35,574 nt of DNA. Origin: a virus. The notes beneath the pieces were generated by a model, which did not search any database, had not been told where the DNA came from, and saw only the letters and a program-made list of their open reading frames with translations. This document shows, in pieces, positions 1 through 34,373 of this stretch (position 1 is its first letter; every line of letters starts with the position of its first letter). The stretch covers positions 1-35,574 of IMG/VR virus record IMGVR_UViG_3300030380_004592; one strand, 5' to 3'. A program made the translations under genes and the position numbers.

Positions 1-3000
1 TCCATAAAATCTTTCCAATATTGAGGTTGATTAGCAAACGCTTTACCAGCTTTTATAGGGTTGTTGAAGCTCCAGTTTAAAAAGTTTATGTTAGATATAA
101 TTTGTAATACAGCTGATCTAGTGTTAAAAAACATTATAGCACCAATAGATCCATTTATATAATCTAAAACTCTATTACTAAGTCTATTGCCACTAAATAA
201 TCTATTTTTACCAGACTTCATACGTTTAAGTATGTTTTCCATTGCATCTCTATACTTTTCACCGTAAGCAGCTTCTAGCTTATTTAAGTTTTCTTCACTA
301 AATATTAACTCAGCATTTTTAGTAAATCCAGACTGATCTAGATACTTAGCTCTTTTAACATTGTTTAAAACGTCTAACAAGTCTGTTGTTATCGTACCTG
401 CTAACCAGTCGTTACCTGGCTTAGCGTAACCATCTCCTTTAGTTAAGTTTAGTATTTCATCTGCAAAAGCTTTTAATAGTCCGTCTGAATTAACAACATC
501 TAACAACTCTTGAGTATCTGTTTTTGACAAGCCTGGAGCAAGATTACCCGTTTTATTAAATAAATAAACTCTTACGGCTTGCTCATTAGTAAATCCACTA
601 TCATTATTTTTTCTTAAATTTTTAGGTATTTCTAAAGCTTTTTTAAGCGCTTTAAAATCTTGAAGCAGGTTTATTCTAGATCTTGAAACATTTTCCATAG
701 CTCTAGCATATGGATCTAATAAATGCTCTTTAAACCAAGCCATTTGACTATCACCTAACTTACCTTTACTTAGTAATGGATATAACAAACCCATAAAGTC
801 TTCAGCTGAGTAAGGTATAAAGAATTTTTTATTACCCTTACCAGCACCTCTAACTTTTGCTTTTGCTCTTGAATATCTTTTTTCCGATGCGATACCTGTA
901 GTCTGTTCTATTATTTTATTAAAGTCTTCGTTGACACTTTTACTAAACTTTATTTTAGCTTGTTGTACTTTTGACTTAACATCTAACTGACTTAAAGCAT
1001 CTTGAACAGCTTTAACATTTTGATAAGCATCATCTGCAAAATAAAAATCATTATAGCCTTCAGCTGCTTTATTTACTATCCATTTAGCTTTAGCAGCACC
1101 AGTAGAGTTACCTAAACCAGTTATATTTTTTAATGGTATATTTAAACCTACACTATCTAAAAATTCTTTAATAGCTACTTGAGCTTCAGGTGCTCTAGCT
1201 GTTAAAACAAAAACATCTTCAGTTCCTCTTGCTTCTTGTATCTTTTTAGCTATATCTAATAATGGACCTGGCTTACCTTCAGTTACTTTATTGAACTCTG
1301 AAAAGTCAAATACATAACCTTCTTTTAATAATCTAGAACCATCTTTAGCAAACTCTTCAGCGTTAAGTTTACCTTTAGTTCCATCAGGTGCTGTAAATAA
1401 AACATCTGACTTAGTAGTAGCTAATGTATCATCAAAATCAAACACTCTAATCTTTTTAACTGGAGCATTTGGATTACGCGCAACTGATAAAGCTTCATCA
1501 ACTGTTTTAGCATAACCAATTATTTCATTATTAGTTTCGCTTTTACTAAACTTAATAACATTATTAGATAAAGTTTTTATATTAGAGTCTTTAGCTTTAT
1601 TTACTGATCTAGATAAACTAGGAGTAGTTAAATTACCACTAGCATCTATTTCCAATGTTTCTCCAAAAGTTTTATTATCTAAACCTTCTATTGAAAATGG
1701 ATCTATACCACCTTCTATATTAGCTACGATTTCATCAAAGTATCTATCAAACCAGTTATCGTTAACAATACTCCAGTTTTCACCCATACTAGTTGTTCTT
1801 CCAGCTGATTTTATTTTAATCTTGTCGTCATAGTTATCTAAAGCTATTAATTTATAGTTTTTCATAACTAAATCATACATAGTGTTAAAATCAGATTTAC
1901 TAAAGTTAGTATCTAAAGCACCTATTAATAAGTATAAATAAGCTCTTGTAGCTGGCATAGCGTGTTCCCACTCATATAACTTACCATCATATCCTTTAGG
2001 GTTTTTAGACCACCCTAGCATTTCAGCACCCATTCTATGAGGATGCGTAACATCAACTCCTACCAAACTAAAGTAATTCCCCCAAGCTTTAGCATTTTTA
2101 TTATTTTCTCTTATAGATTTAAAAACTCTTTGCCAAAGCTGCTTGTGCATACTTAAATGCATTGCGTTTATTTGTTTTATATTTTGAGTTATTTTATTTT
2201 CACCTTTACCTCTTGTTTTACCTTTTGTGTTAGTTTTAGATATTTCTTCTGGTGTTGATCCAAAATATTTTGAATAAGTTATGCCATATTTATAATCTTT
2301 TGCTTTTCCAGTAAAAGGTTTTCCGTATTTTATTTTTTTATTTTTTAAAAAATTATCTCTTTTATTAACAAAATATTTATCAGTTGTTGTTTCTACACCG
2401 TCAACTTTTATTTTTATTTTACCTTTTTTAGCTAGTATTCTATTACTAGGTCTTAAAACTGTTGCTGTTATTAAGTCCTTAGGTAACACAGGTGCCCATA
2501 TATTTTCTACATCTGTAAAAAAATCATCTATAGCTTTTTTAGTATCATGTTTGTATATTTTATCTCCTATGTAAGTGTTTAATAGTTGATCTATATTTTT
2601 AATTTCACCTTCAAACTCTGGATTAACTTGAACAGTTAAATTTTCAATATTTTCTACAGCTTTATTAAACTTAATACCTTCTGGTCTAGCTATTTTTTCT
2701 CTAACTTGTGGAGCACCTCTTTTTACCTCTTGTTCTGTAACTGTTTCTGATAAATCAATAGTTTTATTAGTTACATTACCTTTAGTATCATAAACAGGTT
2801 GAGTAGTGTTATTTACAATGTCGTTAAATTCGTTTTTTACTATAACCTCAGCTAAAAACTTAGGCATTTTTCTTTTTAAAACATCTGGCCTAATGTTCAT
2901 TAAATACTCTGTAATTTGATCTATACTAGGATCTAAAGTTTTAAATAAATCTAAACCAGATTTTAAATTAGAAGTAGATGGAATACGACCTTCATCAATT

Positions 3001-6000
3001 GCTTTTTGCATTTGAGTAGGATTCATATTTTTTATTTCTAACTCGTAGAAAGGAGTCCATTTAGATCTTCTCATAACAGATGGATCTACCTTGTTTAAAG
3101 CTATTAAATCTTCTGCTATTTTTCTAATAAAAGATTCTCTATTTTTAGTAGATAACTCACCATTTTTTGGTAAACTTAATTTATCATATATTACATTAGC
3201 AAAACCACCTGGTTGAACACCTTTACCGGTTGTGTAGTCAACTAAAGCTTTAAAAAACTTTTTAGGATCAGTCATAGCTGGTCTATCAGTTTTTCTCAAG
3301 AAGTTTATTATTTCTCTTTTAGCTAAGTTTAATTCATTTTCAGTTAAACCTATTTTATTAGCTATAGCAGATTGTTGAGGTTTGTTTTTCTTTAACTTAT
3401 CCTGAGCAAGCTTTATATCAGCATAATCTTCAGGACTTATTTCATCAGACACTAATGTTTCAGCTACAGTAACTTTACTATCTTCACCACCCACTTTTTT
3501 AGTAGTAGCAACTGTTGAAGGTTTTTTACCTCTTTTAATTTGTATATCTCCTGAAACTAAGTTTATTAATGGTTGACCGCTAATGTTTTTACCAGTTAAC
3601 CAACCAAATAAACTGTTTTTAGAAGCATCGTACTCAGATCTATATTTATCACTTATTTTTTCTTTAACTTCTTTAACAAATCCAGGATTCATATCTAAAT
3701 AAGCTTCACTAACGGTATTTCTTATAGACGCATCTAAAGTGTTACTTTGTTCTATTTCTAGCAAAGCATCAAAAAATTCTGGAGAGTTCTTAAACTCTTC
3801 TTTAGATTTAAATTTTCTATTTTCAGCTGGCCCAGTAAACTTATCAAAAATTTGTTTTATAGTTTTGTTATCTTCTTTTTTAGAAAACTTAACAACATTA
3901 TCTTCATCGTCTGGTAAAGCTAAATATGTTTTATTTTGAATATTAGATTGGTAGTTTTTAATAAAGTTAAAAACATCGTTTGAAGTTTTCAAATCAAACA
4001 TCCAACTAGAATCTCCAAATATATCTTTTGATATACCATTTATTAAATACTTTAACGAAGGTATAGAATTAAAATCACTCATATTGAGCGCACCAATAGC
4101 AATTGCATTGTTAATCTGAGCTAGTAACTCTTCTGAGTCAGCAGTTGCCTTACCTCTTTTACCTGATTTTAAAATAACTTTACCTTTGCCACCTGTTTTA
4201 TAAGAATTAAATCTAGCTATTAAATCATTGTAGTTTTGTTCTGTTATTTTACCTAACTTAAATTTATTTCTTATAGTTTCTATAGCTTCATCTACTGCTT
4301 TAGTAGCTTCGTCACTTAAAATGCCATCTTTATCAACTATGTTTTTAGCTTTATTTTGTATGTGGAATAATTCTTCTATAGGTGCAGCAGCAGCATACCC
4401 AGCTTGGCTAAGTAAACCGGATTTAGCTATTTGTTCATTTACAACCTCTTCATTTATTATTATATTATTACCAACAGCTGCAGCATTATTTTTAGATTCA
4501 ACTAACTCATCTACCGCTGCTAACTCTTGCTCACTTAAATTTTCTAAACTTTCTCTCCATTTAGGGTTTTTAGTGTCAACAACTATAAATTTACCGTTTT
4601 TAGGCATTAAAACCATTGCAGCATCTTTATAAAAATCATATAGACCAAAGTAATAATCTGGATTTAGATTAACAAAATTTTCACCCATTTCTTCTCTTAA
4701 ATCTTTAATTTTATTTTTGTTTTCTCTTGATCTTTTGTTTAGTAAATATTCTCTTCTAGTGTTAAGATTGTTGTATTGCTGCTCTATTTTCTTTCTAGAT
4801 TCAGTAACAACTGGAGATATTTCTCCAGTTTGTCCAAGCCTTGACATGTTAAATCTTAATTGCCTCATCTGTCTAGCAATGTCAGCAGCTTCTATTATCT
4901 CTTCATTTGTCATAGAGTTTAACTTAGTTAAACTTGTAGCATCTTGAAAAGCTAGTTTATCTAAAAGCTCTCTTCTCCTTTCTCTTAACCCTGTTTTTTC
5001 GGGGCCAGGTCCTAAAGCTCTAAACTGTTCTTGCAGCTGTATTAACTCAATTACATCTTTTTCATTTTCTAATACTTCTTCTCTTGTTGCAAATTCACTT
5101 TTTATTAAGTTTCTAGTATTACCCATAGTTTTAGGCGCCATTATCGCAAAAGAAGTTACAGCAACGTTAGCTAAGAACTCTTTATCTATGCCTTCTATTA
5201 TGGATTTATCTTCATCTAAAACACTTATATCTATAATGTTGTGAGCTACTTGCGTTAATATTTCTTCAGCCTCTTCAATTGAAATAGCTTTAAGAGCGTT
5301 TTTACTAATACCAGATATTGTTTTACCAGTTACATTTGCAGCAAAATTTAAAGGAGAAGAATAAGCTTTAGCTTTAAATTCTTGTGTACCTATTTTTTTA
5401 GCTAAACTAGAAGCTCCATTTAATAACCTAAGTGTACCTAAAGTTTCAGCAACAGTAGCAGCGCCACCAAAAGCATAAGAAGTAAATGCTTTTTGAGCAA
5501 AACTATAATTAGATATTTTTTCTAAATCATTATACTCCTCTTGTAATTCTCGCTTTTTATCATTGTCTAATTCTTCTTCAATTTGCTTTTTTAATTTTGG
5601 TAATTGCTCTAAAGCATTAAACTCTCTAACTTCTATATCTCCAAATTTAAGACCTGTTTCACCAACAAAAAATATACCTTGAGCTGTTCTAGTTCCAGCT
5701 TTTATTAAATTTAAACTTTTTGTTAACACAGCGCCACCAGGTATAAAAGCAGTTACTATAGATGGTGAATTATTAGCTAAAGATTCACCAAACCAATCAA
5801 AAAAGTTTATATTTTTATTTTCAATATCATTTAAAGTTATGTTCTCAGGTATAGTAGTTTCTCTTTTTTTTGCTAGTTTTAAATTGTAATCTACCGTGCT
5901 TTGTTGCAAGTAATCAATAGCTTGATTTATTTTATCTCTAGCTTCTGGCTTATACAATGGTTTAACAACTTTTAAAAGACCTTGACCAGTTAAAGATAAA

Positions 6001-7313
6001 AAACTTTGAACACCACCACCAAAAAACTCTTCTAAAGCCATACCTGTTCTAGCACTTAACGTATAGTCTAATGCTAAGGCATTTTCTATTATTTTTGACG
6101 TTTCAACTTCTCTTGCATCCTCATTGAATTGTTTTATATTTAAGTCGTTTAACTTTTGTTGATCTATTAAGTCACTATATATAGTATCTAATCCCTTTTC
6201 TTCAAATTGTCTTTGTACTTCTTGAGACTCAGCTGCTAAAACTTGATACTTTTTTATTTGATCTTCAGTTCCATTTTCAATATTACCACTCGGTATTGAT
6301 TTTATTATATCTTCAATGTCACTATCTATTCTGTTTATGTTGTCAATAAAAGGTTTAGCTTGTTTAATATAAAGATTATAATTGTTTTTTAAATTATTAT
6401 TTTGTTCTTTTATTATATTTTTACCAATTTTTAATGCTTCAATTGCTTCTTCTGCAGATTTATATTTTTTATCTTTTCCAAAAGGGCTAATTATAGATTG
6501 CGAATCTTCTGGAACTGTTCTTAAAAACAATTTAATTTCTTTTTCTTGCAATTCGTTTATAGTATTGTTCTTAACATATTCTAGTTCAGGATTATACTCT
6601 TCATCTATAACGCCGGTTTTTAAATAGTTTTCGTACTGTTTAAATTTTTTATCGCTTAAATAATTTTTTATAGGTATATACTTAAAACCTACTCTTTTAC
6701 TACCACTACTTTCGTAAAATTTAGATTCTTCTTCAGTTAAAAAACCTTCTTTCAATCCTTTTTCTCTATATTCTTTAAAACTTAACGTTTCGTAAAAATC
6801 AGGTTCTATATTAGAGTCATTTACTACAGTAACAGGTCTTTCATTAATTTTAAAATAATTATTAGCTGTTGCTTCTTTAATTGTTTTTTGAGGTATGTTA
6901 TTTAAACTATAAGTTAAATCATTTAATATTTGATCAGCTTGTATTTTTTTTCTTTTATCTACATTTTCTTTTTTAGTATATTCGTTAAAATCTTTTCTTT
7001 CAGACTCTTTAAATATACCTCTTTCAAATTCTTTATTTACTATTAAAGGATCAAATAAAACTTGAGTTTGAGTATTATTGTCATTATTAATTAGACTTGG
7101 CTCTATGTAGGCTACTAAATCTTCCTTTGCTTGCTTTTTCTCTGGTTCAGTGTCTATACTTACAAATTGTTGTATTATATTATTTGAAGATTCAACGCTT
7201 TTTGATTTTATACTTGGGTTTCTCTTAAGCAATTCATCAAAAGTTAAACCAAGTTCTTCTGCTTTACCTAAAAGATCTTCGTAAGTAACTTCTACACCGT
7301 TTATTTCGTACAT
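1..7313 (-). CDS. Giant virion/ejection-type protein with embedded HAD domain (3' end outside window)
   Basis: The frame is open from ATG at 7313 to the window edge: 2437 full codons with no stop, so the protein is larger still. The start follows the previous stop by one base (TAATATG). It comes third after two internal-virion-type proteins, the position of the giant gp16 ejection protein in T7-like phages; that role is inferred. The N-terminal ~500 residues are charged and helical. Short apolar stretches lie near residues 510-530 and 705-720. A segment with EWEHAMPA lies at 1781-1788. A HAD phosphatase-like domain spans about 1950-2115: DFDDT at 1959-1963, VLTAR with T2038, and FADD with D2094/D2095. 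The motif KFSK occurs at 1142, 1921 and 2122. The last visible part, around 2390-2405 (GAIMFFNTRSAVLQ), resembles a module I associate from memory with giant proteins of uncultured marine phages. No transglycosylase or RNA polymerase motif was recognised. Confidence 0.85.
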   Translation of the reverse strand, partial: MYEINGVEVTYEDLLGKAEELGLTFDELLKRNPSIKSKSVESSNNIIQQFVSIDTEPEKKQAKEDLVAYIEPSLINNDNNTQTQVLFDPLIVNKEFERGIFKESERKDFNEYTKKENVDKRKKIQADQILNDLTYSLNNIPQKTIKEATANNYFKINERPVTVVNDSNIEPDFYETLSFKEYREKGLKEGFLTEEESKFYESSGSKRVGFKYIPIKNYLSDKKFKQYENYLKTGVIDEEYNPELEYVKNNTINELQEKEIKLFLRTVPEDSQSIISPFGKDKKYKSAEEAIEALKIGKNIIKEQNNNLKNNYNLYIKQAKPFIDNINRIDSDIEDIIKSIPSGNIENGTEDQIKKYQVLAAESQEVQRQFEEKGLDTIYSDLIDQQKLNDLNIKQFNEDAREVETSKIIENALALDYTLSARTGMALEEFFGGGVQSFLSLTGQGLLKVVKPLYKPEARDKINQAIDYLQQSTVDYNLKLAKKRETTIPENITLNDIENKNINFFDWFGESLANNSPSIVTAFIPGGAVLTKSLNLIKAGTRTAQGIFFVGETGLKFGDIEVREFNALEQLPKLKKQIEEELDNDKKRELQEEYNDLEKISNYSFAQKAFTSYAFGGAATVAETLGTLRLLNGASSLAKKIGTQEFKAKAYSSPLNFAANVTGKTISGISKNALKAISIEEAEEILTQVAHNIIDISVLDEDKSIIEGIDKEFLANVAVTSFAIMAPKTMGNTRNLIKSEFATREEVLENEKDVIELIQLQEQFRALGPGPEKTGLRERRRELLDKLAFQDATSLTKLNSMTNEEIIEAADIARQMRQLRFNMSRLGQTGEISPVVTESRKKIEQQYNNLNTRREYLLNKRSRENKNKIKDLREEMGENFVNLNPDYYFGLYDFYKDAAMVLMPKNGKFIVVDTKNPKWRESLENLSEQELAAVDELVESKNNAAAVGNNIIINEEVVNEQIAKSGLLSQAGYAAAAPIEELFHIQNKAKNIVDKDGILSDEATKAVDEAIETIRNKFKLGKITEQNYNDLIARFNSYKTGGKGKVILKSGKRGKATADSEELLAQINNAIAIGALNMSDFNSIPSLKYLINGISKDIFGDSSWMFDLKTSNDVFNFIKNYQSNIQNKTYLALPDDEDNVVKFSKKEDNKTIKQIFDKFTGPAENRKFKSKEEFKNSPEFFDALLEIEQSNTLDASIRNTVSEAYLDMNPGFVKEVKEKISDKYRSEYDASKNSLFGWLTGKNISGQPLINLVSGDIQIKRGKKPSTVATTKKVGGEDSKVTVAETLVSDEISPEDYADIKLAQDKLKKNKPQQSAIANKIGLTENELNLAKREIINFLRKTDRPAMTDPKKFFKALVDYTTGKGVQPGGFANVIYDKLSLPKNGELSTKNRESFIRKIAEDLIALNKVDPSVMRRSKWTPFYELEIKNMNPTQMQKAIDEGRIPSTSNLKSGLDLFKTLDPSIDQITEYLMNIRPDVLKRKMPKFLAEVIVKNEFNDIVNNTTQPVYDTKGNVTNKTIDLSETVTEQEVKRGAPQVREKIARPEGIKFNKAVENIENLTVQVNPEFEGEIKNIDQLLNTYIGDKIYKHDTKKAIDDFFTDVENIWAPVLPKDLITATVLRPSNRILAKKGKIKIKVDGVETTTDKYFVNKRDNFLKNKKIKYGKPFTGKAKDYKYGITYSKYFGSTPEEISKTNTKGKTRGKGENKITQNIKQINAMHLSMHKQLWQRVFKSIRENNKNAKAWGNYFSLVGVDVTHPHRMGAEMLGWSKNPKGYDGKLYEWEHAMPATRAYLYLLIGALDTNFSKSDFNTMYDLVMKNYKLIALDNYDDKIKIKSAGRTTSMGENWSIVNDNWFDRYFDEIVANIEGGIDPFSIEGLDNKTFGETLEIDASGNLTTPSLSRSVNKAKDSNIKTLSNNVIKFSKSETNNEIIGYAKTVDEALSVARNPNAPVKKIRVFDFDDTLATTKSDVLFTAPDGTKGKLNAEEFAKDGSRLLKEGYVFDFSEFNKVTEGKPGPLLDIAKKIQEARGTEDVFVLTARAPEAQVAIKEFLDSVGLNIPLKNITGLGNSTGAAKAKWIVNKAAEGYNDFYFADDAYQNVKAVQDALSQLDVKSKVQQAKIKFSKSVNEDFNKIIEQTTGIASEKRYSRAKAKVRGAGKGNKKFFIPYSAEDFMGLLYPLLSKGKLGDSQMAWFKEHLLDPYARAMENVSRSRINLLQDFKALKKALEIPKNLRKNNDSGFTNEQAVRVYLFNKTGNLAPGLSKTDTQELLDVVNSDGLLKAFADEILNLTKGDGYAKPGNDWLAGTITTDLLDVLNNVKRAKYLDQSGFTKNAELIFSEENLNKLEAAYGEKYRDAMENILKRMKSGKNRLFSGNRLSNRVLDYINGSIGAIMFFNTRSAVLQIISNINFLNWSFNNPIKAGKAFANQPQYWKDFM
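936..1553 (-). other. HAD-like phosphatase module bracketed by two KFSKS motifs
   Basis: Within the giant protein, residues 1921-2126 form a self-contained module. It begins and ends with KFSKS (1921-1925 and 2122-2126). Between them are the four HAD superfamily motifs in the right order: motif I DFDDT (D1959 nucleophile, D1961 acid/base), motif II Thr2038 in VFVLTAR, a motif III Lys candidate in GAAKAKWIV, and motif IV FYFADDAYQNVKAV with D2094/D2095. All catalytic residues are present, so a working phosphatase or nucleotidase is plausible. The spacing between motifs I and II, about 75 residues, leaves room for a cap. The substrate cannot be read from the sequence. Confidence 0.75.
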
Positions 7314-27361: not shown

Positions 27362-27580
27362 TTACGCTGGAGGATCTACTGGTTTAGGCTCAAAATGAGA
27401 TGTAGGTATATCGATAACCCATTGCCACTGTGAATTTTGCAAGTTAGAAATATCTGTAGTAGATAAAAATATAAACCAATTATCATTAATATCTTGAATG
27501 CAGTTAAAAAAAGTTACCTCATCAAAAAACACACCTTGTATATTTTCTTTTTGTTCTATTGTTAATTTTCTTGCTTCCAT
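27362..27580 (-). CDS. Hypothetical small protein with Pro tail, 72 aa
   Basis: No family recognised. It begins with a charged helix (ARKLTIEQKENIQGVFFDEV), continues with an aromatic stretch (QDINDNWFIFLSTTDISNLQ) and ends with a Pro-rich tail. The start codon overlaps the stop of the 1192-aa fibre gene (TAATG), so it is translated directly after the fibre. That coupling, its small size and its Pro tail make it a candidate fibre partner or chaperone, without direct evidence. Confidence 0.6.
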   Translation of the reverse strand: MEARKLTIEQKENIQGVFFDEVTFFNCIQDINDNWFIFLSTTDISNLQNSQWQWVIDIPTSHFEPKPVDPPA

Positions 27581-30500
27581 TATACTTGTCTTCCTAACGT
27601 TGTTTGATAAGCTGTTACTAACGTGTTCATTTGGTCAAGTTGTGTATCTGTTAATCCTAAACCAAAGTATACTAAAGAAGTAATACCACCATATCCAGTA
27701 GAATATGCATTTGCTTGATTAATCCATAAATTATATACTGCTTCTGGAGGTAACGCACTATTAACTGAAATACTTACTACTGTTGAGTTATCTTTTTTGT
27801 AAGAAATTTCTGTTGATAGTGTTCTACTTGCTTGATGAAACCCCGCTTGCGTAGCTGGCATAGTAGTCGATGCGGACAAGGAATTATTAATCGTTATATA
27901 CATACTACCAGGTACTCCACCAGCTTTATAAAATGCTAATGAATCAGAACCTTTAAATACTCCTAAAGGAAAAGATTGATTTAGCTGCCAACCGTTTTGT
28001 GTATAAAAACCTAAAGATGCGTCATTCCTACCTAATCCCAAAGCTGCAGGTGTAACTCCTGTATCACCGTATTTACCTTGAACGCCGTCTGAGCTATGTG
28101 TTACTCCTGATGTCCACGTAATTTGCGCTACTGTTGTGTCTTTTAAATTATAACTATGAGAAACATCAGTACCTCCAACAAATGGATATATAACTTTCAT
28201 CTTATCCCAAATACCATTAGATTTCAAACCTGAAACTAAAGTTGTTATAGCTGATTTTTGAGTTGAATCTGTAATTCCAGCTGCCTGTATAAATGCTAAA
28301 GCAGAATCTCTATTAGGTATATCTAAAACTCTATTTGTAGCTATCATATTTGCTGAAAAAGCATTTGCGTTTGAGTTAGGTGCTTCACCTTGTAAGTTTT
28401 CTGGCATATTCATACTTGTAGCTATTCCATTTGATTCACTACCTGGGCCATCACCTATAAGTTCACTACCGCCCATACCACTACTAGTTCCATTATTACT
28501 ATTAGTACTTAAATCAGGATATATCCAATCCGATCCATTAAAATAACTATCTGCTCCTAAACTCCACCATCCAGTAGAATTTAAACTAGTTAGATCACTT
28601 GGAGAACCTCCATTATATATTCTTAATATTCCATCTTCACTTAAAGCTCTATTAAAAATAGATAAATTTGAAAGTAAACCATCGAAAAGGCTACTTAAAC
28701 TATACCAATACCTACCAATTAGTAAGTTTTGACCGTTATCACTTTTATATGTTTTTGACGGTTGATTAGTTGTCTTTACTAAAACGCCGTTTTCATATAG
28801 TTTAAAATCTGTATTGTCATAAGTACAAGCATAATGTGTCCAAGAGTTGGTTGGAGATATTGTGTTATCAGATTGAACTTGAACATTAGTATTGTCTGAA
28901 GATAACCACTTAAAAGTCATTTTATTATTTGCCGCGTAAGCTCTAATGCCTGAAAGTGCGTTATGCATCAATAAAGTATCATTCAAAGCAACAGTATTAA
29001 AATTAGCCCAAAACGAAATGCTAAATGTATTAAGTCCATTTAACAAATTAAAATTACTAAAAGTTGCATAATCATCTGTTCCATTAAACTCTATACTATA
29101 ACTACTATACGGAATACTACGAGTTAAATCAGAGCCAACTAAATTTGCTGTAGTCATACCTTCGCTAAGACCGTTTAGTGTAGATACTAAAGATGAAACT
29201 TGTGTTGCTCCATTATTTGTACCGGTATTTCCATTACCACTTGAGTCTGTTATAGTAGTATTATCTAGCTTCCACCACGCGTAAAGATTAGAAGTATCAA
29301 TCGCTGTTTCTAAAGGCGTACCATTATTATATAATGTTTCAATTGAATTAGCTCCTGTAGCTGGTAAAGTTGAATTATATATTTGTATATTACTAATTTG
29401 TCCATTAAACTCATATGAACTATATCTACCTAAATATCCATAGTTGTTAGTCCAAACTAAATCTGTTGTAGTTGTATTAGTTAAAACAGGTTGACCATTC
29501 AAGTACAACACCCTTGTAGTTGTAGGCTTATCCCAAGTAGCTGCAAAATGATACCATTGATTAGCATTTAAAACAGAACTATAAATCATATTAGTTCCCC
29601 AGCCTCCTGAAGTCCATTGATAATAAGCAAGCTTGCCATTAACTAACCAAATGGGCATACCATCATTTCCTCCACTTCCTACAATTCCTTGAAGTCCTGA
29701 GGTTGTATTAGTTTTAAACCACCCTGAAATAGTTACATTTGAAGTTGAAATACTTGGAGTTCTATTATAAGTAATAAAAGAAGTACTTCCATCAAAATCT
29801 AAAGCAGTAGAGTAATTAGCTGTAGAATTACCTATCTCCCAATTACTACCATTCCAATTACTAGTATCAGCATTCATTTTCCACCAAATAAAAGGAGCAT
29901 TATTATAACTTTCCGCTGGCACTCCATTATTATAAATGTTACTTAATTCTGATGTTTGATCGCTTTTCCAAATGACTAAATTTGACATATCACCATCCCA
30001 ATTGTTAGAACCACTCCACCCTGCTGCGTCTTTACTTAAACTTTTGAAATTAAAATCATTTGAACCTGTACCTAGGTTAGTAGTAGTAACTGTAGCACCA
30101 TCTAAATAAAATTGTGCAGTGTCTCCATTTCTATAAATTAAAATATGATGCCAATTTCCATCTCTAAATGAAGTTGAAGCAGCTGTATTAGTATATGAAT
30201 ATTGAGTACCAGCGCCTCTGTACATAAATAAAGAATTATTCCTTAATAAAAAAGCACTTAATCCATAACTAAAAAAAGCATTGTTAGATGTTCCAGAAGT
30301 ACTTGAAGGACATTTAGCCCATAATGAAATAGTCATTTCTGTACCTAAATTTTCTAAATTTCCCGTAATTCTATCTGAATTGGCTCTTACAAAATTAAAA
30401 ACAGTTGCGCTTGGCAATGAAGAGTTTGGTACAGTTAAAGTGTTTGGAGATGATGTAGCAGCGTCACCAGTACTTGACCCACCTAAATCATAATAAGCTA

Positions 30501-31158
30501 TAGGTGAATTACCTGGTATAGCCATAGGATTTTGTGGATTAGGTGTAGATCCACCAGCATTGTTGTTATATAAATATTTTATTTGATTTTCAGATAGTGT
30601 GTAGTCGAAAATTGATAATTGATTCATTTTTCCATCAAAAAATCTTCCTGACGATATATCCCATCTTCCAATATTAAAACTTCCACTACTTGCAGTTGTT
30701 GTAGAATTTATTGTCCCTGAACCTGTTGTTGTAACGTTTACTCCATCTACATATATTTTAGCTCTGTTAGTGTTGCCAGTTTCATTTCCATCATAAGTAA
30801 CTGCTATATGATACCAAGTAGATGTTGATAAAGATATTGAACTCTCTACATAACGATTTCCATCATCATTTAAAAAAAATGCAAAATAAAATCTTAGTTT
30901 ATTAAGCTGTGTTTGTAAAGCAAAAGAATATTGCGTGTTTGTAGCTCCACCATAACTAAATAACGCTTTATTACTTGTTGTGCTATTAAAATTAAACCAT
31001 CCTGAAACTGTAAAGTTTGTAGTACTAACTAAACTATTATTAACACCACAATTTATAAATTCAGAACTCCCATCAAAATCTAAACTATAGTTATCTAACT
31101 TACTCTGATTGCTTTCTTCAGGCATTCGCCACGTTGGTGATATCCATTTAGTTGCCAT
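27580..31158 (-). CDS. LamG-repeat tail fibre / adhesion protein, 1192 aa
   Basis: Four concanavalin A/LamG-like jellyroll domains sit in a row at about residues 23-195, 246-430, 447-630 and 684-870. Each shows (S/A)LDFDGSxxF or a variant, SGWF or SLWA, W(Y/H)H near the middle, and (Y)LDG or YVDG then F(D/N)G with a closing LYNNG; closing WWK/WWS motifs follow domains 2-4. Such domains bind glycans on the host surface. The C-terminal ~250 residues are different: SALAFIQAAGITDSTQKSA, then WDKMKVIYPFVGG and LVYFGLGLTDTQLDQ, ending TTLGRQV. I associate this module with fibre proteins of Bacteroidota phages. Domain architecture suggests host-range function; the C-terminal tip is probably the receptor-binding or trimerisation part. 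Confidence 0.85.
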   Translation of the reverse strand: MATKWISPTWRMPEESNQSKLDNYSLDFDGSSEFINCGVNNSLVSTTNFTVSGWFNFNSTTSNKALFSYGGATNTQYSFALQTQLNKLRFYFAFFLNDDGNRYVESSISLSTSTWYHIAVTYDGNETGNTNRAKIYVDGVNVTTTGSGTINSTTTASSGSFNIGRWDISSGRFFDGKMNQLSIFDYTLSENQIKYLYNNNAGGSTPNPQNPMAIPGNSPIAYYDLGGSSTGDAATSSPNTLTVPNSSLPSATVFNFVRANSDRITGNLENLGTEMTISLWAKCPSSTSGTSNNAFFSYGLSAFLLRNNSLFMYRGAGTQYSYTNTAASTSFRDGNWHHILIYRNGDTAQFYLDGATVTTTNLGTGSNDFNFKSLSKDAAGWSGSNNWDGDMSNLVIWKSDQTSELSNIYNNGVPAESYNNAPFIWWKMNADTSNWNGSNWEIGNSTANYSTALDFDGSTSFITYNRTPSISTSNVTISGWFKTNTTSGLQGIVGSGGNDGMPIWLVNGKLAYYQWTSGGWGTNMIYSSVLNANQWYHFAATWDKPTTTRVLYLNGQPVLTNTTTTDLVWTNNYGYLGRYSSYEFNGQISNIQIYNSTLPATGANSIETLYNNGTPLETAIDTSNLYAWWKLDNTTITDSSGNGNTGTNNGATQVSSLVSTLNGLSEGMTTANLVGSDLTRSIPYSSYSIEFNGTDDYATFSNFNLLNGLNTFSISFWANFNTVALNDTLLMHNALSGIRAYAANNKMTFKWLSSDNTNVQVQSDNTISPTNSWTHYACTYDNTDFKLYENGVLVKTTNQPSKTYKSDNGQNLLIGRYWYSLSSLFDGLLSNLSIFNRALSEDGILRIYNGGSPSDLTSLNSTGWWSLGADSYFNGSDWIYPDLSTNSNNGTSSGMGGSELIGDGPGSESNGIATSMNMPENLQGEAPNSNANAFSANMIATNRVLDIPNRDSALAFIQAAGITDSTQKSAITTLVSGLKSNGIWDKMKVIYPFVGGTDVSHSYNLKDTTVAQITWTSGVTHSSDGVQGKYGDTGVTPAALGLGRNDASLGFYTQNGWQLNQSFPLGVFKGSDSLAFYKAGGVPGSMYITINNSLSASTTMPATQAGFHQASRTLSTEISYKKDNSTVVSISVNSALPPEAVYNLWINQANAYSTGYGGITSLVYFGLGLTDTQLDQMNTLVTAYQTTLGRQV

Positions 31159-33296: not shown

Positions 33297-33752
33297 TTAT
33301 TTTTTTATTTTTGTAATCTTTTCAGCACCTCTAGATCCAAAGTATGCTACATAAACTGTTATAAGTAAAGCTTCTAATAATGAAACCCAACCTGTTTTAA
33401 TTTCTAATAGTACTGTTGAATCTAGTACTATAAATATTGTCATTGCTAAAGTTAAGAAAATAAGTGTCATAGGTCTTGTATTTTTACTAAGCCATGAATC
33501 ACTTTTCATATCACTTTCCCATCTTCTTGAGATGTTATCCATTTCAGCAATCTCTTGTTCTAATATTTTTAAAGCCATCTCTTTGTCTTCTGGCCCAATA
33601 CTAGAATCACTTGATATAAGATTTTTTACTATTCCAAGACCACCTTTATCAGGCAATACGTCTCCAATAGTATTAAGGATTTGAGGAGCTTTACTTTTTA
33701 GAAAAGCCCCTATCTTACTATCCTTAAATTTTTTATTTTTTTTATCGCTCAC
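33297..33752 (-). CDS. Holin, 3TM/GTA-holin-like, 151 aa
   Basis: It would make holes in the inner membrane at lysis. The first ~75 residues are soluble and Lys/Asp/Glu-rich. The conserved block WESDMKSDSWLSKNTRPMTL at about 77-96 matches the pattern W-x-x-D-x-x-S-x-S-W-L-x-x-x-x-RP of the GTA holin family. It is followed by two strong apolar segments (IFLTLAMTIFIVLDSTVLL at ~97-115 and WVSLLEALLITVYVAYFG at ~121-138) and a basic tail. The start is GTG, sharing a base with the upstream stop (TAGTG). It is next to the zincin-like gene and a 52-aa membrane protein, which suggests a lysis cassette. Confidence 0.85.
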   Translation of the reverse strand: MSDKKNKKFKDSKIGAFLKSKAPQILNTIGDVLPDKGGLGIVKNLISSDSSIGPEDKEMALKILEQEIAEMDNISRRWESDMKSDSWLSKNTRPMTLIFLTLAMTIFIVLDSTVLLEIKTGWVSLLEALLITVYVAYFGSRGAEKITKIKK

Positions 33753-34030
33753 TACTTTTCCATTCTATCGTAATACATACCAACTCTATCTTTTGGTAAC
33801 TTACCATCTATTCTATCTAAATATAAACCAGATCTTTTTTGTTCCATTTTTCTATCCATCTTCATTTCAGGTCTGTCCATATCCATTTCAGCTCTAGACA
33901 TTTCCATTTTAGCTCTATCCATATCCATTTTAGCTCTATCTAAATTCATTTTAGCTCTGTCCATTTTCATAGGAGCCATAGTTTGTAGAGTATCTTCACC
34001 CTCTAACATTTCTTTTTTAACCTTATTCAT
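33752..34030 (-). CDS. Heptad-repeat protein (MDRAKM), 92 aa
   Basis: The start was chosen at ATG 34030 because it is one base after the stop of the zincin-like gene (TAAAATG). A longer frame would begin inside that gene at 34171. Residues 23-64 consist of six seven-residue repeats, M-D-R-A-K-M-(D/N/E), each with Met, Asp, Arg and Lys. Further loose repeats follow (YLDRIDG, YYDRMEK). The regular pattern predicts a charged amphipathic helix with a Met face. The stop overlaps the holin start by one base, so the two are translated together. No family or function is recognised; binding to membranes or other virion proteins is possible. Confidence 0.75.
   Translation of the reverse strand: MNKVKKEMLEGEDTLQTMAPMKMDRAKMNLDRAKMDMDRAKMEMSRAEMDMDRPEMKMDRKMEQKRSGLYLDRIDGKLPKDRVGMYYDRMEK
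33839..33964 (-). repeat. Six 21-bp tandem repeats in the heptad-repeat gene
   Basis: Six in-frame copies of 21 bases occur at 33944-33964, 33923-33943, 33902-33922, 33881-33901, 33860-33880 and 33839-33859. Copies 2-4 are closest to each other, with a shared GAGCTAAAATGG-type core on the coding strand; copies 1, 5 and 6 have diverged. In-frame length matches the seven-residue protein repeat. Confidence 0.9.
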
Positions 34031-34031
34031 T

Positions 34032-34373
34032 TTACTTTGTTTTTCTAAATTTACTATATTTTTCTTTTCTATAAGCTTCTTTTTCCCAAGGAGCTTTCTT
34101 ACGTTGCTGTGCTGTTTTAAAATTTTTAATTGGATAAGCTTTACCCTTCCAATAATAATTTTTATCATCAACTCTAAGATCTCCTCTTCTTAATTGGTCT
34201 ACATGTACTTTTTCGTGGCTAATAACATTTGCTAATTCTTTTGGATCACTTATATCATTAGCGATTATTATAGAACCATTGGTTTTAGTTTCACCATTTA
34301 TAGTATAATCAGTACCAGTTCTATAGATAGGTGTATTATCTATAGTATAAGGAGGGTTCATTTTAAAAGCCAT
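34032..34373 (-). CDS. Small zincin-like protein with HExxH, 113 aa
   Basis: The motif VISHEKVHVDQLRRGDL holds HExxH at residues 53-57 (H53, E54, H57), the zinc-binding core of many metallopeptidases. A later PWEKEAY (E97 or E99) could give the third ligand of gluzincins. The protein is very short for a peptidase and has no signal peptide. It begins MAFKMNPPYT and ends with a basic tail. The start overlaps the stop of the upstream 52-aa membrane gene (TGATG). Next to a holin it may be a lysis or processing protease. Similar small HEKVH proteins seem common in uncultured marine phages, from memory. Confidence 0.7.
   Translation of the reverse strand: MAFKMNPPYTIDNTPIYRTGTDYTINGETKTNGSIIIANDISDPKELANVISHEKVHVDQLRRGDLRVDDKNYYWKGKAYPIKNFKTAQQRKKAPWEKEAYRKEKYSKFRKTK

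Follow-up and report, generated by a model that had tools for sequence, protein, structure and literature searches.

How are the parts of a giant phage protein joined, and may they be separated again? This question is raised by a linear fragment of 35,574 bases from an uncultured ocean phage (IMG/VR record IMGVR_UViG_3300030380_004592), referred to as the window. One open reading frame on its minus strand (3..7313) is translated into a giant polyvalent, probable virion protein of 2,437 residues, the C-terminus of which is cut off at the contig end. The original prediction had noticed that a short motif, KFSK, recurs in this protein at domain borders, and had explained it either as a site of proteolytic cleavage or as a linker created by domain shuffling. 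We confirmed the recurring border motif, while the interpretation is supported in part. The motif is almost certainly, judging from sequence comparison, a seam at which modules have been exchanged. In the reading that we favour, with a probability of about one half, the chain would in addition be cut at this tag, most likely by a zincin-like metallopeptidase (MPTase) module embedded in the same protein.

Motif copies and layout of the giant protein

Several disparate modules, namely a zincin-like module, a HAD phosphatase and a number of exchangeable segments, are united in a chain of at least 2,437 residues, as is characteristic of polyvalent proteins. All three copies of KFSK are present exactly as reported, and each is preceded by V or I. 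The first (residues 1142-1145; 3879..3890, on the minus strand like all features described here) lies at the seam between the zincin-like module and the first cargo module. The second (residues 1921-1924; 1542..1553) precedes and the third (residues 2122-2125; 939..950) follows the HAD module, which covers residues 1948-2118 (960..1472) and is supported by a match to PHROG_415 (E = 3e-4), a DFDDT motif and a structural model. The claim that two copies frame this module therefore holds. Homology breaks point to exchangeable cargo modules between the first and second copy (residues 1146-1920; 1554..3878); they have no Pfam or PHROG match, and no Pfam match was obtained for the giant protein as a whole.

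Two further sites resemble the motif. The variant IKFNK, correctly placed at residue 1547 by the original prediction (residues 1547-1551; 2661..2675), has the same upstream sequence as a KFSK site in the relative L013. Since it shares its neighbours (REKIARPEGIKFNKA) with that site (REKIARPKGVKFSKS), IKFNK represents a genuine site in modified form. RYSR (residues 2146-2149; 867..878) belongs to a conserved element, K-x-(Y/F)-S-x-A-K-A, where Ser is found in 59 of 64 relatives and the following residue is variable. It is probably a different conserved element and not the same tag.

The composition of the giant protein predicts 0.087 copies of KFSK, and none of 2,000 shuffled versions reached the three that were observed. 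However, some 4-mer occurs at least three times in 75% of the shuffles, so the count within this single protein is only suggestive, and the weight has to come from tests across the family.

Enrichment and module exchange across the family

Scans of viral and genome contigs yielded 112 non-redundant giant proteins related to that of the window, with 303,541 residues, while a tblastn search found no phage record with a detectable relative. KFSK occurs 78 times in these relatives, compared to 8.4 expected copies. The distribution was examined with the pattern (K/R)(F/Y/M)S(K/R/E) in the 94 proteins that have one zincin motif and a HAD motif. Only 7 matches were found before the zincin (13.7 expected) and 4 in the remaining C-terminal part (12.7 expected), whereas the cargo region between zincin and HAD contains 50 (16.2 expected, 3.1-fold). 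The strongest enrichment was seen directly beside the HAD module, with 27 matches in the 60 residues before it (1.1 expected, 25-fold) and 58 in the 50 residues after it (2.7 expected, 22-fold). Inside the HAD core the motif stays near background (3 versus 1.4), and other genes on the same contigs show no excess (32 versus 26.4). Over the 112 relatives, the motif exceeds chance only from the zincin module to the end of the HAD module and the flank behind it. A position at domain borders, as first suggested, is thus borne out in homologues: the motif is enriched around and between modules, where homology breaks, but neither in folded cores nor in the domains at the N- and C-terminus. A pattern search run blind on a stretch of 40 residues before HAD ranked FSRS first and FS.S only slightly lower. 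Such motifs are almost absent from the distant relatives elemoE, ctfjg026 and Panino. We also considered avoidance of the motif outside linkers (0.43-fold) as a sign of a cut site, but permuted motifs ranged from 0.30 to 2.06 and the idea was dropped.

The motif also marks the places where homology between relatives ends. In an all-against-all comparison, 12.0% of the right ends and 8.9% of the left ends of homology lie within 10 residues of a motif, compared to 1.3% and 1.1% in shifted controls; these ends are not independent events, as relatives share history, but permuted motifs share the same history and show no effect. The peak of right ends sits on the final K of the motif. When the same residue classes were arranged in all 24 possible orders, breaks were marked only by the true order and by those sharing the FS(K) core. 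The clearest case is a module swap between five proteins exactly at (F/M)SK of the zincin-proximal site, which in the window is the first KFSK copy. In the 80 residues leading up to KFSK, L011 and L013 share 98% identity, which falls to 30% behind the motif, while the identity between L013 and the window protein rises from 34% ahead of KFSK to 88% beyond it. L017, in turn, shares 66% identity with the window protein before the site and 20% after it, where it is 89% identical to L025. With homology ending at the motif and this exchange, the shuffling part of the original proposal gained direct support.

Selection acts on the protein, because KFSK is spelled by 14 different 12-base sequences, and both TCN and AGY codons are used for Ser, also at the fixed site after HAD. 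These spellings rule out a recombination signal at the DNA level. The surrounding linker is variable at the site after HAD, yet 53 of 64 relatives retain the Ser there and 42 of 63 the Phe. In the linker behind the zincin, Ser is conserved to at least 90%, compared to a mean column identity of 30% in this alignment. AlphaFold models, built on the alignments of the relatives, place two of the three window sites in predicted poorly folded linkers. The first copy falls into a segment of 25 residues directly after the zincin module (residues 1123-1147, local residues 274-298; 3873..3947), which is predicted to be disordered, with a predicted local distance difference test score (pLDDT) below 50. 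The third lies at a dip below 50 (local residues 242-244) that separates the final HAD strand from the helix following it, and the second in a coil between helices with a pLDDT of about 75.

Some side observations concern the relatives. KFSK is not the only over-represented 4-mer, as (L/I)TPE reaches at least the same excess when distinct contexts are counted (LTPE 20 versus 2.9 expected); it rarely stands at homology breaks and probably marks the start of ordinary helices. When the middle modules of 42 relatives were scanned against Pfam and PHROG, only isolated single matches came up. An E-H pair in the module before HAD (residues 1783-1784 of the window protein; 1962-1967, minus strand; within YEWEHAMPATRAYL) is conserved to at least 90% in these middle regions and may be a nuclease-like or other catalytic centre. 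Relatives L111-L124 stem from contigs binned into metagenome-assembled genomes of Ilumatobacteraceae, Woesearchaeota, Aliivibrio and Clostridiales, and are probably misbinned phage contigs.

The embedded zincin-like module and the case for cleavage

If the tag is a substrate, which enzyme would cut it? The original prediction saw the only protease candidate in a small HExxH protein at 34032-34373. We found a likelier one just upstream of the first KFSK copy, a zincin-like module at residues ~885-1120 (3954..4661), leaving the small protein as the weaker alternative. Of the 95 relatives in which such a module is recognised, 89 have an HExxH motif. The window copy instead reads EELFH (residues 980-984; 4362..4376), in which the first His is replaced by Glu, while Glu 981 and His 984 are kept. 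Five relatives (L017, L047, L050, L052 and L081) likewise carry EE(L/I)FH and retain the other putative active-site residues, which suggests an altered or repurposed putative metal site in these six members. Glu 1062 (4128..4130), the putative third metal ligand, is retained in the window copy; together with E981 and H984 it is invariant in the 16 sequences of one alignment (A4), and its counterpart is invariant in a second one (A5). The AlphaFold model shows three strands and the two expected helices, with E1062 in the predicted helix 211-223, and the order of these elements fits the description of zincins in polyvalent proteins (PMC5512222). A fold search with the model gave no match in the PDB at E < 0.001, and profile comparison of the window zincin with other phage MPTases gave none either, so the assignment as a putative zincin rests on motif, conservation and predicted topology. 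Solved-structure searches with the other phage MPTases likewise returned only weak matches, mostly to designed helical proteins.

Polyvalent proteins of phages and conjugative elements have been described by Iyer et al. 2017 (PMC5512222). The zincin was reported to be their most common domain and was proposed to process the chain in which it resides (PMC5512222). Like these proteins, the giant protein has many unrelated modules, heavy shuffling and an embedded zincin; it differs in having no Pfam match and in its EELFH. A border tag is not described in that work, and neither such a tag nor a substrate site of these zincins was found in the open-licence papers searched. While self-processing by the zincin is an existing idea, what is new here is a candidate tag for borders and processing in polyvalent proteins. 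As a residue-level target, the tag makes self-processing directly testable, and it can be used to divide giant phage proteins into functional units.

In the favoured reading, the giant protein is a chain of cassettes: an N-terminal part is followed by the zincin-like module, then by cargo modules that vary between relatives, the HAD module and a conserved C-terminal part. A tag of the approximate form (V/I)-(K/R)-(F/M)-S-(K/R/E)-(S/T) stands in the linkers between modules, where modules were exchanged. This tag would also be the place where the chain is cut. The most likely enzyme is the zincin, which would act in cis or on adjacent copies; if this happened in the assembling head, or in the host once the protein has been ejected, the cargo enzymes could be released. 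Zincins usually prefer a hydrophobic residue at P1', the position that Phe would occupy if the scissile bond were that between K and FSK. Cleavage is favoured because the tag lies in linkers, because self-processing has been proposed for such proteins (PMC5512222), and because similar tags recur beside zincins elsewhere.

The last point comes from phages that were found via an unrelated zincin. FS(K/R) motifs seemed to bracket the zincin there, which prompted a test that was fixed beforehand: FS(K/R) at -130..-60 and +100..+180 from HExx(x)H was counted against the rest of the same proteins in 20 new non-redundant polyvalent proteins from other phages and prophages. Ten motifs in 2,927 flanking residues against 19 in 39,406 give an odds ratio of 7.1 (Fisher p = 1.5e-5), but the tested zincins are interrelated, so that the count may be too high if their flanks share ancestry, and the p-value errs on the optimistic side. 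The scrambled control F(K/R)S was absent from the flanks, taken 5 residues wider. Several sites have similar contexts (NPDIRFSR, PDDVRFSK, GDIRFSK), a refined pattern that was noticed after the fact. It is a tentative extension of these comparisons that (D/N)-(I/V)-(R/K)-F-S-(R/K) beside zincins might be a general code for self-cleavage in phages of diverse hosts, by which modules could be swapped as pre-marked cassettes. Giant proteins with an LPD38 domain elsewhere were too few and showed no clear overall enrichment of the motif. Further zincin queries, run in two collection scans, retrieved no relatives, and the single weak match from a class-wide search of 385 genomes was not used.

Several findings weigh against cleavage by the zincin. 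The window copy is without the first His, and members with EE(L/I)FH carry more tags (2.8 on average, n=6) than those with HExxH (1.4), which shows no coupling between the tag and an intact active site. Conversely, a strict tag is missing from the region in 25 of the 89 members with HExxH. Outside linkers, several permuted motifs are as rare as the true one. Among the relatives no gene is split at a tag, and the one split that was found (L082) is elsewhere. DdrB of phage P1 resembles the giant protein in its zincin (HELGH) and is an internal head protein reported to be processed, and KRFSY stands 116 residues before HELGH; a cut there would give 82.5 kDa, however, and not the reported 76-kDa product (PMC5512222), for which reason DdrB was rejected as a precedent for the site. 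The virion RNA polymerase of N4, an injected virion protein, is likewise a giant with a zincin (HELVH) and is reportedly packaged uncut (PMC5512222); its FS(K/R) motifs at -235 and +518 lie outside the tested flanks.

Could the motif be a seam and nothing else? KFSK may be a tolerated linker that is inherited with shuffled modules, where joins keep the domains folded and nothing reads the sequence. Such an explanation needs no protease, accounts for the demonstrated seam behaviour and fits the persistence of tags in members with an altered zincin. We nevertheless regard it as unlikely, because Ser and Phe are kept at the site after HAD, where homology runs through in most relatives, because similar tags flank zincins in unrelated phages, and because the differing codons show that the motif is not simply copied DNA. 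Somewhat less probable still is a reader other than a protease, where the tag would bind the portal, a scaffold or a chaperone, or would be a point of unfolding or refolding as the cargo threads through the tail. The tags are basic and stand between modules, and in the crassvirus model the cargo is partly unfolded during ejection (PMC10172136); the window phage has muzzle proteins of crassvirus type. Nevertheless, taken alone this idea leaves the flanking of zincins in other phages unexplained, and it has no known partner.

Cleavage by another enzyme, be it the small HExxH protein, a prohead protease encoded outside the fragment or a host protease, seems improbable to us. It would fit the EELFH of the window zincin, the incomplete contig and the HEKVH of the small protein. 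However, most relatives contain the embedded zincin, nearly all tags lie downstream of it, and its association with tags recurs in other phages. The small protein itself (34032..34373, minus strand) matches PHROG_10499, a phage family of unknown function (E = 8e-12), and has no significant Pfam or NCBIfam match. No prohead protease gene was found among the window genes scanned, the record being a genome fragment. Chance repeats in a lysine-rich protein can practically be set aside: although shuffled copies readily repeat some 4-mer, all family-wide tests contradict this explanation, and shuffles, letter-order permutations and position controls rule it out.

Phage setting

Terminase, portal and further virion proteins are encoded in the window, as identified by PHROG matches. 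The giant protein is probably packaged into the virion and delivered together with the DNA, judging from its place among the virion genes, and genes at the homologous position in related phages are annotated as structural. Two proteins of this marine phage (9960-11639 and 11651-15283, both minus strand) match crassvirus muzzle families (PF25729, E = 6e-10; PF25731, E = 9e-9). The crassvirus phi-crAss001 has large virion cargo proteins (PMC10172136), and its likeness to the window phage consists in this description and the muzzle genes; proteolysis, protease or peptidase are not mentioned in the main text of that paper.

A structural protein of the capsid region has relatives of 41-49% identity in phages of Flavobacterium and Maribacter and in an unclassified phage; those in Cellulophaga phages are weaker. 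Because of these relatives, the host is probably an aquatic member of the Bacteroidota. The phage thus combines a tail end of crassvirus type with a capsid region whose relatives are found in Flavobacterium and Cellulophaga phages.

Two further genes on the minus strand deserve mention. A predicted protein at 33752-34171, whose frame overlaps the gene at 34032-34373, contains a run of near-repeats (MDRAKM, LDRAKM and similar). The protein of 1,192 residues encoded at 27580-31158 shows, by eye, several repeated segments resembling LamG/concanavalin-type units and is probably a tail fibre or adhesin.

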